A stretch of DNA of 64,000 nucleotides from a bacterium (GTDB lineage: Bacteria > Hinthialibacterota > Hinthialibacteria > Hinthialibacterales > Hinthialibacteraceae): assembly GCA_016125385.1 (NCBI GenBank), contig WGLV01000022.1, positions 62,001-126,000 of the forward strand, given 5' to 3'. Position 1 is the first letter of the stretch, and each line of letters begins with the position of its first letter. A program made the translations under genes and the position numbers. Below the pieces are notes generated by a model. The model was not told the DNA's origin. It ran no database searches and saw nothing but the letters and a program-made list of their open reading frames with translations. Shown piece after piece: positions 55,249-61,896 of the stretch.

Positions 55249-56178
55249 TCAGTGCATCTCGACGCGGCATTCACCGATCCCGCCACGATAAAAGTTAAAT
55301 TGTACGTTGGGGTGATCGGCCAGCAGCGACATCGGCACGGCGGCGTCGGCGATCCGCTTGCCGATCATCAGCGTGGTGAGCCGCATCCCGAATGGATTGT
55401 CGTGCATTCCCGCCTGCCAGATCGAGACTTTCTCCGCCCGCCAGGTTTCAACCGGCCCCACCGTGATCGCCTGAGTGGGAACCCCGGTTACCACCCCGCC
55501 GCCGCTGGTGCGCGCGTTCTGCATGCAGGTGACGGGGTGAAGGTCGGTCACGCGCGCCCCAAGCCGGCGGAACTCATCCGGCGAGGGCGGCTCGTCTTTC
55601 CATTGACCGGCGCGGCGCGGCGGATCGTTAAACGCCCAGTGTTTGATGTCGCCCTGTCCGCCCTGCATAACCACGCAACGGGCGCGATCCCAGCTCTGTT
55701 TATACTCGCTCAGATCGGCCTTGGGAAAATGCAGATTCGCTTCCGGTATGCGCAGATGTGGAGCGATCCGGTTAAAGCATAACTCTCGATCGGCTCTCTC
55801 GAACGAGAGGGGGTGAGACGCATCGACTTCGCGGCCGTTCTGATACCATTCATCCATGCCCCAGAAGTGAGCGTGCGTCAGGTCGATCCCGAGTTCATTG
55901 ACCAGCCGCGCGACGAGAGGCAGTTGTTCGGTCGGGCCGATGGGGCCGCAGATCCCGGCGGGCGCATCGGGCGCCGCCTGCTTCCATGCGTGAATGTATT
56001 CAAGCGCTTCCGCGAGGTAAAAATCCTCCAGCGTGTCGTAGAACGCCACCCGAAATCCCTCTCGCGACATCGCCAGCATATCCTCCGCCGTCAACCGCGC
56101 GGCGTCATCGAGAATCTCGTCGTCCAGCGTGGTGTAATCCCACCAGTCGGGCGCCAGCATGCTGAGTTTTCTCGCCAT
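55249..56178 (-). CDS. Glucosamine-6-phosphate deaminase/isomerase-like protein (NagB family)
   Basis: A 309-residue protein of the NagB/RpiA fold. Motifs match glucosamine-6-phosphate deaminase: [10 protein letters not shown] near the phosphate site, HFWGMDEWY for the catalytic Asp (Asp72 of E. coli NagB), and [15 protein letters not shown] for the Asp-x-His segment, but the usual final Glu (FNEP) is Asp, and the GIGxDGH motif is altered to GGQGDIKH. It may therefore act on another amino sugar phosphate. AGGAGAA precedes ATG on the minus strand at a good distance. It is the last gene of a three-gene set with a PIG-L deacetylase and an oxidoreductase. Confidence 0.8.
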
Positions 56179-56190
56179 CGGCGTTCTCCT

Positions 56191-56961
56191 TCAACCGTTT
56201 GATTTCATGTTTTGAATCGGATGCGTGTATTCGGGTAACAATTCCTGCAATCGCGGTTCGTGTGGATATGCGTGCCCCCGGTGTTGCCTGAACCCTTCCG
56301 CGTAATCGGCGCCGATCAGGGCGCCGCGCGCGGCGGAAAAGCGCATCATCGCTTCGATGTATTCATCCATGCCGTGATGGGCGCGCAGCCATTCGCGTTG
56401 CGAGGCGTGACAGGCCAGCATCTCCGCCTTCTCGCTGATCGCATCGCTGACGTCGATGCAGAATTCAGGCTGAATCGCTTCCCCGAAATGATCCGTCCCT
56501 TCCATCGCGTCGGCGTAATACAATGCTGGAATTCCCGTCAATGGAGAAGCGGCGCCGGAGTGATAATTCCGGATGCCCGCCGCGAACGCGGCTGTCCGAA
56601 CCACGGCGGCGGTGATTTCGTGATCGGGCATGTAGTCCACCGGCGACGCGGTCAGAATGATATCGGGCCGCGCGCGCCTCAGGTATTCCACTACGCCGCG
56701 CCGCGTGCGCTCATCGTCGTAAATCTCCAGGTCTGAGAATCCGAGACATTCATAATCCGCGCCAAGCCGGTTGGCTGAACGCTTCGCTTCTTCCATCCGG
56801 ATGGCTGATATTTCAACCTGGTTCTTATCCGGCGAGCCTTTGTCCCCCGGCGTCATGGTCGCCATGAAGATTTCATGTCCGCCCCGCTTGAGCAGAGTGA
56901 GCGTACCGGCGGCCATGAGTTCGATGTCGTCGGGATGCGCGAAAATGGCTGCGATTCTCAT
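56191..56961 (-). CDS. PIG-L family N-acetyl sugar deacetylase
   Basis: A 256-residue zinc enzyme of the PIG-L/LmbE family, which removes N-acetyl groups from GlcNAc derivatives. The metal motif is AHPDDIE near the N-terminus, with PDHEIT and the usual ASPVDYMPDH stretch later supplying another histidine. ATG 56961 is chosen: GAGGAAA on the minus strand lies eight bases before it; the frame extends to 57057 but that part overlaps the upstream gene. Twelve bases separate it from the NagB-like gene and ten from the Gfo/Idh/MocA gene, so the set is one operon; deacetylation followed by isomerisation or deamination of an amino sugar is the natural reading. Confidence 0.88.
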   Translation of the reverse strand: MRIAAIFAHPDDIELMAAGTLTLLKRGGHEIFMATMTPGDKGSPDKNQVEISAIRMEEAKRSANRLGADYECLGFSDLEIYDDERTRRGVVEYLRRARPDIILTASPVDYMPDHEITAAVVRTAAFAAGIRNYHSGAASPLTGIPALYYADAMEGTDHFGEAIQPEFCIDVSDAISEKAEMLACHASQREWLRAHHGMDEYIEAMMRFSAARGALIGADYAEGFRQHRGHAYPHEPRLQELLPEYTHPIQNMKSNG

Positions 56962-56971
56962 GCCGGTTTCC

Positions 56972-57994
56972 TCATAGCGGCAGCTTGACGCTCTCTCCGG
57001 TCCGCGCCGATTGCTCGGCCGCGTAACAGATTTCCATGATGTGCGCGGCGTATTCAATCGGGACGGACGAGTTTACGCCGCGTTCCAGACAGTCCACGAA
57101 ATGATCGATCTCGCCCTGAAACGGGTGATGCGTCACGTCGCCGCTGTCGGGTTGAATGGTGGGGAAGGTCGCGAAGCCCGTTTGTCCCGGATAGGTCTCT
57201 GAAAAAATCTGATTGTCGCGAATCGTCCCGCGTGAACCGAAAAGGCGGATCGGAAACATATACGGAGCCTTGCATTCGATCGAGCTGGACACTTTTCCAA
57301 CGCGTCCATCGTCGAATTTGCACAGCGCGATCAGCGTCGGTTCGTATTCATAGGTCTCATATTCCTTCGCGGTCGAGCGGGCGGCGAAAGCATGAACCTC
57401 GCTGACGCGCGCGCCCATGAACCACACCAGCCCGTCTACCGCGTGGCAGCCCGCCGATAAAAACGAGTTGCCGCCCGAGCGGCGGGTGACGTTCCAGGCG
57501 AACTGTTTATACCAGGGGCCGATGCCGTGATAATAATCGACCTCGCCGTAATACAGATCGCCCAGCGCGCCGCCGTCGATGAACGAGCGGATCAGTGAAA
57601 ACATCGGATTCCAGCGCAGGACAAAACTGACCACCGACTTGGTCTGATGATCGCGGACGCTCTGTACCAGCGGCTTGAGCTCATCGTGATTCATGGCGGC
57701 CGGTTTTTCCATCACCAGTTGCGCTCCGCCTTCGATGGCGCACAGGGCGTGTTCGACGTGCAAATGGGGCGGTGAACAGATCGATACCACCTCGGGCGCG
57801 GTATGCTCGATCATCGCTTCCGCCGAATCGAAACATTTTGCGCCGATGCCAAATTCTTCAGCCTTCTTTCGCGCGCTGTCCATGGAGGATGACGCCAGCG
57901 CGACGACTTCCGTCAACGGATTATTCTGATAGGCGCGGATATGTTCGCCCGATACCCACCCGCAACCGATGATCCCGACCCGGTATTTCGCCAT
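56972..57994 (-). CDS. Gfo/Idh/MocA-family NAD(P)-dependent oxidoreductase
   Basis: A 340-residue cytoplasmic dehydrogenase: Rossmann start [18 protein letters not shown] motif with the conserved Lys (MEKPAAMN), and a C-terminal beta-sheet half with [14 protein letters not shown], where the conserved His of the family is seen. ATG 57994 is preferred because AAAGGG lies about nine bases before it; the in-frame GTG 58003 is too close. First gene of the operon with PIG-L and NagB-like genes. Substrate is an unknown sugar or inositol. It differs from the two exported homologues nearby by having no signal. Confidence 0.9.
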
Positions 57995-58031
57995 GTCGTT
58001 CACCCTTTCTCGATTTCCGATCCAACATCAT

Positions 58032-58072
58032 AAACAAAACCGGCCGGGAGCGCGAGGCGTCTTCCCGGCCGG
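58032..58072 (-). terminator. Rho-independent terminator of the exported Gfo/Idh/MocA gene
   Basis: CCGGCCGGGA (58040-58049) pairs with TCCCGGCCGG (58063-58072), 13-nt loop; the forward AAACAAAA (58032-58039) gives a TTTTGTTT tract on the minus strand. It separates the exported oxidoreductase from the three-gene operon. Confidence 0.85.
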
Positions 58073-58092: not shown

Positions 58093-59349
58093 TCAGATCG
58101 TGGGCAGTTCCCACGGTTTCCGGCGTGGACGGTCGAGATACGTATTGGCGTCGTCGTCGCCGATGAAGGTTTCCTTGACCGGGTCCCATTGCAATTTCCG
58201 GTTTGTCCAGCGAGCCAGATTGATCATGTGGCAGGCGATGGATGAACGATGGCCGATTTCTACGTCGGCGATGGGCTTGTTGCGGCTTTTCACGCAATCA
58301 AGGAAATTCTGCTGATGATTGGGGCTGACTTCGAGTTTCACCGCGAATTTCGATTCATCGCCGGGGTCCAGGCTGGATGGCGTGATTTCATACCTGTCGC
58401 GGTCGACCAGAATCTTGCCTTTTTCACAGATGAACACCGCGCCGCCTTCCGGGCCCTGACCGTCCATTTTCACCACCACGCCGTTGGCGTATTTCATGTG
58501 AACGGGGCGGTTGAGTGTGCGGAAACTCCCCTCGCTCCAGATTTCAACCGGGCCGGTATCGTCCGTACCGAGCGCCCACTGAATCATATCGAGGCCGTGA
58601 GCCCCCCAGCCGGTGACTTCGCCGCCCGAGTAGGGGACGAGCGAGATCCAGCCCGGGTTGGCGCGTGGCGTATAAATGTCTTCGTGATAACCGCGAAGCG
58701 GCGTGGGGCCAAGCCAGCGGTCCCAGTCGATTCCCGGAGGAACCGGCTGCGTCGGCAGTGGCTGATCCCACGGGCTTTCATAGTTATAACCGTGAACTTC
58801 GATGACCTTGCCCGCCGCTTCATTTCTCACCAGTTCGCAGCCGTAACGGCTTCGGGTGCTCGAACGCTGCTGGCTTCCACATTGCACGACGCGCTTATAT
58901 TTGCGCGCCGCGTTAGTGAGCGCACGGCCTTCGTGAATGGTCAGCGTCATCGGTTTTTCAACGTACACGTCTTTTTCAGCCATGCAGGCGTACATGGCGC
59001 AGAGAACGTGCCAGTGATCGGGCGTGGCCACGATGACGGCGTCGACCTCTTTCAGCGCGAGCAGGTCGCGAAAATCCTTGCACTTTTTCCACGTCTTCCC
59101 GTCGGCCACCCGATCCATGCGATCGCTGTTCAGATCGCTGATCGCGACGAACTGAGCGTCGTTTAACCGGCTGAAGTCGCCCATCAGCTGGCTGCCGCGG
59201 CGGCCCGGTCCAATAATCCCCATATTCACTTTGTCATTGGCGCCGAATACGCGTGATGAGACGAACAGGGGAGCCGTGATCGCGACGGCGCTCGCCGCGC
59301 CGCCTCCTTTCAGAAAGTCACGGCGTTTGACGGATGTCAGGTTCTTCAT
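58093..59349 (-). CDS. Exported (Tat) Gfo/Idh/MocA-family oxidoreductase
   Basis: A 418-residue oxidoreductase with a Tat signal: KRRDFLKGGGAASA near residue 9, hydrophobic core, and small residues before ANDKV (about residue 37). The Rossmann part is GIIGPGRRGSQLMG, the conserved lysine lies in YVEKPMTLT, and GWGAHGLDMIQ carries the family histidine. Tat export of a folded NAD(P)-binding enzyme is typical of this subfamily, abundant in Planctomycetes-like genomes; natural substrates are largely unknown. GGGGAAG on the minus strand precedes ATG. It has its own leader with a striking nested hairpin at 59455-59526, and its own terminator. Confidence 0.9.
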   Translation of the reverse strand: MKNLTSVKRRDFLKGGGAASAVAITAPLFVSSRVFGANDKVNMGIIGPGRRGSQLMGDFSRLNDAQFVAISDLNSDRMDRVADGKTWKKCKDFRDLLALKEVDAVIVATPDHWHVLCAMYACMAEKDVYVEKPMTLTIHEGRALTNAARKYKRVVQCGSQQRSSTRSRYGCELVRNEAAGKVIEVHGYNYESPWDQPLPTQPVPPGIDWDRWLGPTPLRGYHEDIYTPRANPGWISLVPYSGGEVTGWGAHGLDMIQWALGTDDTGPVEIWSEGSFRTLNRPVHMKYANGVVVKMDGQGPEGGAVFICEKGKILVDRDRYEITPSSLDPGDESKFAVKLEVSPNHQQNFLDCVKSRNKPIADVEIGHRSSIACHMINLARWTNRKLQWDPVKETFIGDDDANTYLDRPRRKPWELPTI

Positions 59350-59616
59350 CTTCTTCCCCTTTCAGATAAGGTCGGTTTGATGAAATCCATTGCAACACAG
59401 GTTGGCTCAAAAATATCAATGACGCTCGTCTCAAAACCCTCTTTTTTGAGCCTTGAACCAATTCGGTGAAATACGCCGGGGAAACGTGATTTCTTATCAC
59501 GTTCAAACCCGGCGGCATACTGGTTCCAAATTCGATTTTTCCATGTTTGGCGTCTCAAGACAAGCGCGAAGTGATGATGAAGCGCTTTTCCCCGTGGCTG
59601 AATCGCTTGATAGCAA
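59350..59616 (-). other. Leader of the exported oxidoreductase with nested inverted repeats
   Basis: Between the oxidoreductase start and the terminator of the next gene (both leftward). Contains a large nested hairpin at 59455-59526 described separately. No coding frame with a ribosome site is convincing here. Confidence 0.4.
59455..59526 (-). repeat. Three-tier nested inverted repeat (possible cis-regulatory RNA or operator)
   Basis: Three concentric stems: GAACCA (59455-59460) with TGGTTC (59521-59526); CGCCGGG (59474-59480) with CCCGGCG (59508-59514); AACGTGAT (59483-59490) with ATCACGTT (59496-59503), loop TTCTT. All arms are perfect. It lies 105 to 177 bases upstream of the exported oxidoreductase start and, in its leader if the promoter is further up, could fold as a large hairpin. 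AACGTGAT/ATCACGTT alone could be a protein-binding palindrome. Confidence 0.6.
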
Positions 59617-59652
59617 GAAAAAACGCCATCCCGGCATGACCGGGATGGCGTT
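59617..59652 (-). terminator. Rho-independent terminator of the metzincin-type protease gene
   Basis: AACGCCATCCCGG (59622-59634) pairs perfectly over 13 bp with CCGGGATGGCGTT (59640-59652), 5-nt loop; six A residues at 59618-59623 form the U-tract on the minus strand. Very strong. Confidence 0.95.
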
Positions 59653-59676
59653 AAGTGGATCATATCAGTAAAACCG

Positions 59677-61896
59677 TCAGTGATCGTGTTTCTTCCAATC
59701 GTCCACGCTGGTTGAGACCGTTGGCGTCGCGGTTGGAGGAAGCGGCGTGGCTGTCGGAACCAGTGGCGTCGCTGTGGGCGGAACGGGAGTCGCCGTGGGG
59801 GGTACTGGTGTTGAAGTTGGTGGAACCGGAGTCGCCGTCGCAGGAACCATCGTTGGCGTGGGCGGCGCGGGCGTTGGAGTTTGTGTGGGGACCTGCGCCG
59901 AGCCGACCGCGAACAGCGTGTTGAGGTTGTTGTTCGTGCTGTTCTGATCTTCGTTTGAGGTCAGCCGCCACTCCAGCGTATAAACGATCTGCTGACTCGA
60001 TTTCCATGAAGGTGACGTCCACGTCTGTGTGTATTGGGGGGGAAGCCCCTGGTCGTATGAGCCGTTCAGAATGCGGCTGCCGTTAGCGAAACCCTGAATT
60101 TGATACGATTGCACGGTCTGCTTGCCGACGTTCTTCACTTTTACCTTGAATTGAATTGACTGCCCTGGAGAGGGCTTTTCAACGACCTGATCGGTGTTGG
60201 CGGCGACCAGCCACGTTTCAATGATTTCCAGATCCTTGTCGTATTGAATCGGTATCGGCGCCGTATCAATAGGCGGAGATGTCGGCGTAGGCGTCGGCGT
60301 GTAGGTCGGGATCGACGCGGGGCCGCCGTCAGTGAATGAAACGGTCAGCAGGTAATCTTTATACGACTTGCGGCTTTCCGAAGCGGGGTGCGTCACGCCG
60401 ATGAAATAGTCGCCGGTTTCCGTGGGGGTAAACATCATCGAGGGAAACTCTTCTTCATTGCTGACGCTGGTTTGTCCCGAGGGCGAAACCAGTTGCAGCG
60501 TCACGTCGCCAACGTAAGAGACTCCGTCGAAACTGGAGATGAAATTCTCCCGCAAAACCGATCCGATCGAAAGCGCGGCTTTGATTTCGCGTCCCGCGTC
60601 GTTCGGCGTAATGGTGATGGAATACCAGTCCTGCTGATCCGTGAGCGTTTCGCGGCGGTTTTGCGCCGAGGGAGAATACGATGACAGCGCTCCCAGAATG
60701 GGGCGGCCGATGGAGATCGGCATGGCTGATTGCGTTGAGTCGTTTGTCTCGCTTTCCTGCGAGATTTCGCCGCGCGCCAGGGGAGAGTATTGCTGATATT
60801 CCGTGAAAGCCTGATCGAGCAGCGGCTGAGCGGCGGATGGATTAAACACGCCGTAATAATGGGCGATGAAGGCTTTGACCTGCGGTGGAAGGTCAGGGTA
60901 AATCGAGTTGGAATCGGCGTCGTCATAGGTCATGAATGAATTGATCAGGCCGCGGCTCCAACCGGTGTTGATGAAGTCCTCCCCGGCGATGTTGTATGAA
61001 GGTGCGCTGGGCGGTGGATTGCTCACTACATTGCTTGACAGCCAGTCAACGTTGTATTCCGACGTGGCGCCGTTGTCTTCATTCGCCAGTGCGTCGAAGG
61101 GATGGCGCAACCCCATCAGATGGCCGGTTTCATGCAGCATGGTCGACCAGATTGTTGAACGCGAAAAGAACGATCCGTTCACCGTGGTCGCGAAAGTCCT
61201 GAGCGGATACACGTAAATAAACGGATTCCCTGGCGGACGAAGGGCGTATGCTTCCTGCGGCTGATCGATATAGGAAGACGCGGCGACGAAGCGCGTGTAT
61301 GAACTGCGCAGCCAGTAATTGGGCGTGCTCCCGCGCCAGGCGCCGAATAACGTGGCCTGACCGGTGGAGGAGCCCAGTTCATTGTTAGTAGTAGCTTGAA
61401 TGGTGATGTGATAGTCGCTGCTGGTGGTCTCCTTGAATTCCAGACCGACGTATTTTAACGATTGGTTATAGACGTCGATCGCTTTTCTGTATTCGTTTTC
61501 AAACGAGGTGACGTCGTCCTGCGTATAACCCCCGTCGGTGATAAAAGCCGAAAAATCGATCCGGTAACGGCATTCCAGAAGACCATCGCCGTCTGAGTCG
61601 GTGCGATCGTCGGCGATGTACAGATACTCCGCCGGCCAGTGATACACGTCTTGAGGATGATTGAGCGCCTCGTGTGACCAGTAATCATCGGGCACGTAGC
61701 GCGTATCGACGATGGGTTTGAGACCCTGTTGAATGCGCCGCTCCTGTTCATGCAGGTATTCGCATGTCGCACAACGGAACGGTTCCTCGTTCAGTTCGAT
61801 TTTCTCATCCGCGCGGACTGGTGAAGCCGAGAATAACCCGGCAGCCAGAACCACCAGATAAAACCACATAAACCGTTTTTCCCAATTCAGAATCAT
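59677..61896 (-). CDS. Exported metzincin-type metalloprotease with PPC and CARDB domains and Pro/Thr-rich tail
   Basis: A 739-residue secreted protein. After a signal peptide ([20 protein letters not shown]) and a cysteine-bearing N-terminus ([11 protein letters not shown]), the catalytic domain has [11 protein letters not shown] with His255, Glu256, His259, His265, the HExxHxxGxxH zinc motif, and SFMTYDDAD, a likely Met-turn. Around residues 380-520 is a pre-peptidase C-terminal (PPC) beta-domain, and residues ~560-660 a CARDB-like adhesion domain. The last ~70 residues are repeats of [13 protein letters not shown] ending DDWKKHDH, with no sorting signal. PPC domains are usually trimmed after secretion. 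DNA of the tail (about 59700-59900) is repetitive. Substrate unknown. Divergent from the third oxidoreductase. Confidence 0.85.

Follow-up and report, generated by a model that had tools for sequence, protein, structure and literature searches.

Nested inverted repeats upstream of an exported oxidoreductase gene are probably part of a decayed copy of a dispersed palindromic repeat

Three concentric inverted repeats lie upstream of an exported oxidoreductase gene in the window, the whole 64-kb stretch of DNA analysed here, and raise the question of what kind of element they represent. The original prediction offered two options, a metabolite-sensing cis-acting RNA or a DNA element. The results described below support the second and lend no support to the first: the nested repeats are probably part of a decayed copy, on the plus strand, of a dispersed MITE/ERIC-like palindromic repeat. 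The features of the locus are collected in Table 1.

Table 1. Features at and around the nested inverted repeats, in window coordinates
Feature	Position	Strand	Source
Nested perfect inverted repeats, three stems (8, 7 and 6 bp), 5-nt loop	59455..59526	no strand	Sequence, repeat search, fold, shuffles
Innermost palindrome, AACGTGAT-ttctt-ATCACGTT	59483..59503	no strand	Repeat search
Entire repeat unit, probably a decayed copy of the dispersed palindromic family	59420..59536	+	R2, profile, consensus alignment
13-nt core GGAAACGTGATTT, same as the family consensus	59480..59492	+	Consensus alignment
Second perfect inverted repeat, GGCTCAAAAA / TTTTTGAGCC, 10 bp, 29 nt between arms	59404..59452		Repeat search
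Oxidoreductase, Gfo/Idh/MocA family domains, Tat signal	58093..59349	-	ORF list, domain search
Metalloprotease-like protein gene, upstream neighbour	59677-61896	-	Domain search
Intrinsic terminator of the upstream gene 59677-61896	59622..59652	-	Terminator scan
GC-rich hairpin followed by a T-rich stretch, after the oxidoreductase gene; probable terminator	58040..58072	-	Fold and sequence, not terminator scan

The arrangement of three perfect stems of 6, 7 and 8 bp around a 5-nt loop, as first described, is reproduced by repeat search, by the sequence itself and by folding. The inner stem pairs AACGTGAT (59483-59490) with ATCACGTT (59496-59503) across the loop, and the middle stem pairs CGCCGGG (59474-59480) with CCCGGCG (59508-59514); both were returned by the repeat search. 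The outer stem, GAACCA (59455-59460) with TGGTTC (59521-59526), is evident from the sequence itself, and the folds also pair it. On the plus strand, the RNA fold of 59440-59545 has an energy of -33.1 kcal/mol (z -3.5), and none of 200 shuffles is equally stable. When the leader (59353-59620) was dinucleotide-shuffled 20,000 times, an inner stem of at least 8 bp appeared 856 times, the inner and middle stems together twice, and all three stems never. Along 424,000 bases of the contig that carries it (C2), the strict three-stem pattern is found a single time, and it is absent from 1,696,000 bases of Markov sequence. The arrangement thus exceeds chance, as had been proposed. Its folding energy is unexceptional, with a rank of 40 among 912 hairpins of at least 14 bp from 206 intergenic regions (60,342 nt), a set that includes many terminators and some hairpins from possible uncalled genes.

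Inspection of the sequence finds no T-tract directly after the nested structure on either strand, so that the combination of a GC-rich stem and a direct T-tract that marks an intrinsic terminator is not present in the nested repeats. A terminator scan of 59300-59800 returns only the site that ends the upstream gene, in keeping with the earlier view that the structure is not terminator-like. Pfam returns nothing for the two open frames that span the element (105 and 66 aa), and plasmid and phage records hold no match to the leader DNA at E<=1e-5. The exact core is found in 35 stretches of viral contigs, a number judged to be about that expected by chance for 16 fixed bases in a large collection. 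Another nested two-stem hairpin with no direct T-tract is located elsewhere, with convergent genes on either side (L069:5548-5610).

The position upstream of an exported oxidoreductase gene is correct: a gene with Gfo/Idh/MocA domains and a Tat signal lies about 105 bp from the nested repeats. Both genes flanking the element are on the minus strand. Since the upstream gene is terminated and a hairpin with a T-rich tail follows the oxidoreductase gene, the element occupies an upstream region that belongs to a single gene. A standard promoter scan of the surrounding region (59300-59800) finds no promoter, and the two best matches of an ad hoc promoter score, which are too weak for use, put a start near 59523-59528. 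The cluster downstream of the oxidoreductase gene (window 55249-58003, minus strand) encodes a second Gfo/Idh protein, a PIG-L deacetylase and a 309-aa protein. The last of these has no Pfam or NCBIfam match and is, as a guess from its sequence, sugar-phosphate isomerase/deaminase-like; the cluster possibly serves an amino-sugar pathway. In relatives (at least G004), the genes for the second Gfo/Idh protein and the PIG-L deacetylase are adjacent and lie away from the oxidoreductase orthologues.

Near-copies of the inner palindrome were read together with their surroundings, and several of them have a longer sequence in common. A seed profile was built from seven copies, which had been found via the element's own 10-mer; it found further copies and also the window stretch (E=0.0011). 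A covariance model from 18 family copies, with the element left out (R2), matches at least 71 places in the element's own genome at E<=0.01, a lower bound because only 150 of 1,782 first-look candidates were scored. Among 30 other genomes, R2 finds eight places in one that belongs to another genus of the same family (G001) and none in the remaining 29.

Twelve young copies give a consensus of about 115 nt, which runs from TATAGCGG to CAAATATA and folds with an energy of -45 kcal/mol. The unit is a single long imperfect palindrome with three concentric helices; its inverted halves of about 50 nt contain one interruption, and the consensus has TATA at both ends. It is A+T-rich, with 40.5% GC compared with 56.6% in 424 kb of the contig. 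The family is within the size of a bacterial MITE (<200 bp) and, as in a MITE, no protein is encoded: five of the six consensus frames contain stops, and the one open frame is without a conserved product. Individual copies vary by single-base indels in the loop. Pairwise identity among the 30 best copies ranges from 51 to 96%, and members of the young group are mostly more than 85% identical to their nearest neighbour. The near-identity of young copies (up to 96%) suggests that the family spread recently. An ad hoc gene caller places each of the 30 copies checked, as well as the window copy, between genes; the copies stand in both orientations, and the 27 family copies with both neighbours called lie between divergent (13), tandem (9) or convergent (5) genes. 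At one locus, three near-identical copies are arranged in tandem about 116 nt apart (L067:14709-15053). Many families of this kind are reported from systematic surveys of other genomes (PMC2267715). A literature search with limited coverage of subscription journals found nothing on repeats in this lineage or under the name Hydrogenedentes, and the family is apparently an undescribed, MITE-like one in an uncultured lineage.

Covariation had been proposed as a check on the structure, and when it was applied to the dispersed family, compensatory changes were present. The set comprised 37 copies, 30 from the element's own genome and seven of the eight from the other genus. In this set, 83.9% of cells are paired compared with 79.0 +/- 0.6 in shuffles, sliding the partner leaves at most 47.7% of cells paired, and 59 cells are changed on both sides compared with 26.6 +/- 4.9 in shuffles. 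The first 18 copies gave a smaller excess (73.0 versus 70.2 +/- 1.0 paired). Compensatory changes keep the family's palindrome; as the shuffles ignore kinship, the data support a maintained palindrome and do not measure selection. One could go further and regard the family hairpin, compensated across at least 70 loci and two genera, as a maintained regulatory or DNA-processing element whose copies, such as that in the window, outlast decay through template-switch re-formation of a perfect palindrome in a new register; we consider this rather unlikely.

Several comparisons place the window stretch in relation to this family. Across the 64-kb window, the sole match of R2 at E<=10 is the stretch listed in Table 1, which is aligned over the full length of the model (24.5 bits, E=0.0011). 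An iterated nhmmer profile of 20 copies, with the element excluded, matches 59408-59522 (22.8 bits, E=1.3e-5 in 516 kb), and the best reversed-sequence decoy over three profiles has E=0.78. Aligned with the consensus of the young copies, the stretch is identical in 70 of 121 columns, and none of 5,000 shuffles and none of 5,000 random window segments align as well. The 13-nt core is included in this alignment, and because the first seven seeds were found via the element's 10-mer, selection of the copies accounts for part of the agreement in the core. When the core is masked, a match persists at the expected colinear position (11.1 bits, E=0.019); the 30-copy profile also finds that place, with only 7.3 bits and E=0.31. 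Without the core, the left part reaches about the 1% level (51 of 5,000 shuffles and 39 of 5,000 window segments are as good) and the right part is not significant (1,177 and 752, respectively). When the profile was built from only those copies without AACGTGATT (12 of 30), the element was not recovered, nor is it among the at least 71 genome-wide R2 matches. Overall, the similarity extends over the full length of the unit and is above background, but it is modest outside the core.

The three helices of the family are not in register in the window stretch, where the R2 alignment contains many broken pairs. The window stems use another register, and the 3' arm of the inner family helix is now paired with sequence immediately downstream. 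Since the helices are out of register, we term the stretch a probable decayed copy rather than an intact member. Its resemblance over the full length to a dispersed palindromic family with three concentric helices bears out the suggestion of a DNA element, and we infer that the stretch descends from a family copy.

The shifted register and the lack of significant similarity in the right half alone would also be expected of a stand-alone palindrome that formed locally, for example by template switching, and shares 13 nt with the family by coincidence. By simple arithmetic, however, a 13-mer shared with a 115-nt consensus is expected in only about 3 of 10,000 such stretches, and there is colinear similarity in the left part as well, at the 1% level. 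Furthermore, R1, a covariance model made from just the element before the repeat family was known, recovers the element and, in the rest of its own genome (5.5 Mb), a single very weak place (C71:48318-48396, E=7.2), and this place falls inside a copy of the repeat family (C71:48286-48400). A coincidental likeness is, in our judgement, improbable.

A structured leader RNA specific to the oxidoreductase gene, riboswitch-like or an mRNA-stabilising 5' hairpin, would be unrelated to the repeat. The leader fold on the minus strand is stable (z -3.0), and the oxidoreductase gene is alone in the region between two terminators. In addition, the second inverted repeat of Table 1 abuts the nested structure, with part of its span within the repeat copy, and overlaps a 7-bp alternative (59430-59436 / 59444-59450); these adjoining repeats could give hairpins that are mutually exclusive with the nested structure. 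A 10-bp inverted repeat with a gap of up to 40 is present in 90 of 5,000 leader shuffles. Against such an RNA, Rfam gives no match in the window at the gathering score and only chance-level scores for the leader at permissive settings, and the leader has no terminator or clear ribosome-site switch. Orthologues of the oxidoreductase from the same taxonomic family are 62-71% (L023, L024, L025 and L026) or 50% (L027) identical, and inspection of these five leaders reveals unrelated upstream sequences and no such hairpin. R1 finds nothing at E<=1 in 14 relatives. A comparison of the leader DNA with 61 genomes gave only short, chance-level matches outside the element's own genome (best foreign E=0.0031, 39 nt). 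Moreover, the stretch resembles a dispersed repeat, copies of which stand beside unrelated genes in both orientations. We therefore do not retain the metabolite-sensing part of the original prediction, and a gene-specific leader RNA of either kind is unlikely.

The inner AACGTGAT-N5-ATCACGTT could also be a DNA operator bound by a dimeric regulator, with the outer stems incidental. Its half sites are perfect over 8 bp, it lies upstream of a gene, and there is one intergenic near-copy with a single mismatch (C6:76227). This near-copy (L150:2001-2021; G000:C6:76227-76247) folds into a longer hairpin. The exact core, however, occurs only once in the 5.5-Mb genome when spacers of 0-12 are allowed. 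With up to three mismatches, the inner palindrome is found at 44 places, compared with three for the reversed control. Among the 19 of these that were inspected (one from L080; L160 had no called genes nearby), ten are inside called genes and nine between genes, and some of the intergenic ones are repeat copies. An operator would, moreover, leave the bulged outer stems unexplained, and we regard this reading as doubtful. An integron attC site was also considered, from its end motifs, and dropped.

A decayed repeat copy, the reading that we prefer, can be placed in a tentative scheme. In its build the family resembles bacterial MITEs such as ERIC and Correia, being AT-rich and intergenic, with TATA ends and three concentric helices. 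Its copies would have spread by transposition, with a transposase acting in trans. In the window copy, the present perfect stems may have re-formed later in a shifted register: as the copy decayed, the imperfect palindrome would have become perfect in an adjacent register. Such re-formation could occur, for example, by template-switch correction of the imperfect palindrome; template switching is described as a known route for creating or mending stems of this kind (PMC8794818). The window hairpin, if transcribed, could affect how stable the oxidoreductase mRNA is or how it is processed. Any effect on this gene, whether as a 5' leader hairpin or as DNA near the promoter, would be a by-product of insertion and not metabolite sensing, and the window copy is probably a passenger.

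Bacterial MITEs, as characterised in the passages cited here, are shorter than 200 bp, encode no protein, have TIRs with 5'-TA-3' ends, are A+T-rich, generate a target-site duplication and are mobilised by a transposase in trans (PMC2229807). In the present family, conservation ends in TATA on both sides; no further duplication is visible by eye, and a TA duplication would be indistinguishable from the element ends. A search with a 62-nt family end returned 23 places and no partner element. One of these places is a half copy (L207:3001-3048; G000:C12:46397-46443), which has just the left end; within 3 kb, no right end matches it.

Among similar known repeats, ERIC (also IRU or RU-1; enterobacteria, 127 bp) is likewise short, intergenic and non-autonomous, with TIRs, TA termini and a long stem-loop (PMC2229807). 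ERIC belongs to another lineage, and the likeness is one of description rather than of sequence comparison; a target duplication is reported for ERIC (PMC2229807), whereas only TATA ends are seen here. The ERIC hairpin is reported to alter mRNA stability or processing (PMC2229807). Correia or NEMIS elements (Neisseria, about 107 and 155 bp) are similar in size, copy number, TIRs and intergenic location; about 120 copies are reported in N. gonorrhoeae, and the hairpin is present in transcripts (PMC2229807, PMC2649163). Features described for Correia itself are variation of copies between strains, cleavage by RNase III and promoter supply; its hairpins bind RNase III and its ends can form promoters (PMC2649163). 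RUP (Streptococcus pneumoniae, 107 bp) resembles the family in size, intergenic spread and TA target (PMC2229807), but has a proposed partner, IS630-Spn1, of a kind that the 62-nt end did not reveal here. REP and REPIN are also dispersed extragenic palindromes in many copies. REP units are described as 20-40 bp long and mostly with a short tag at one end (PMC3733652), and with its length of about 115 nt and its TATA ends the present unit was not assigned to REP or REPIN.

The repeat is thus probably a new family of a known type, with the window stretch as one poorly preserved copy. What might have been a new riboswitch is now read as one worn repeat copy, which stops a false lead. As young and old copies occur together, the decay and re-formation of palindromes could be traced within this family.
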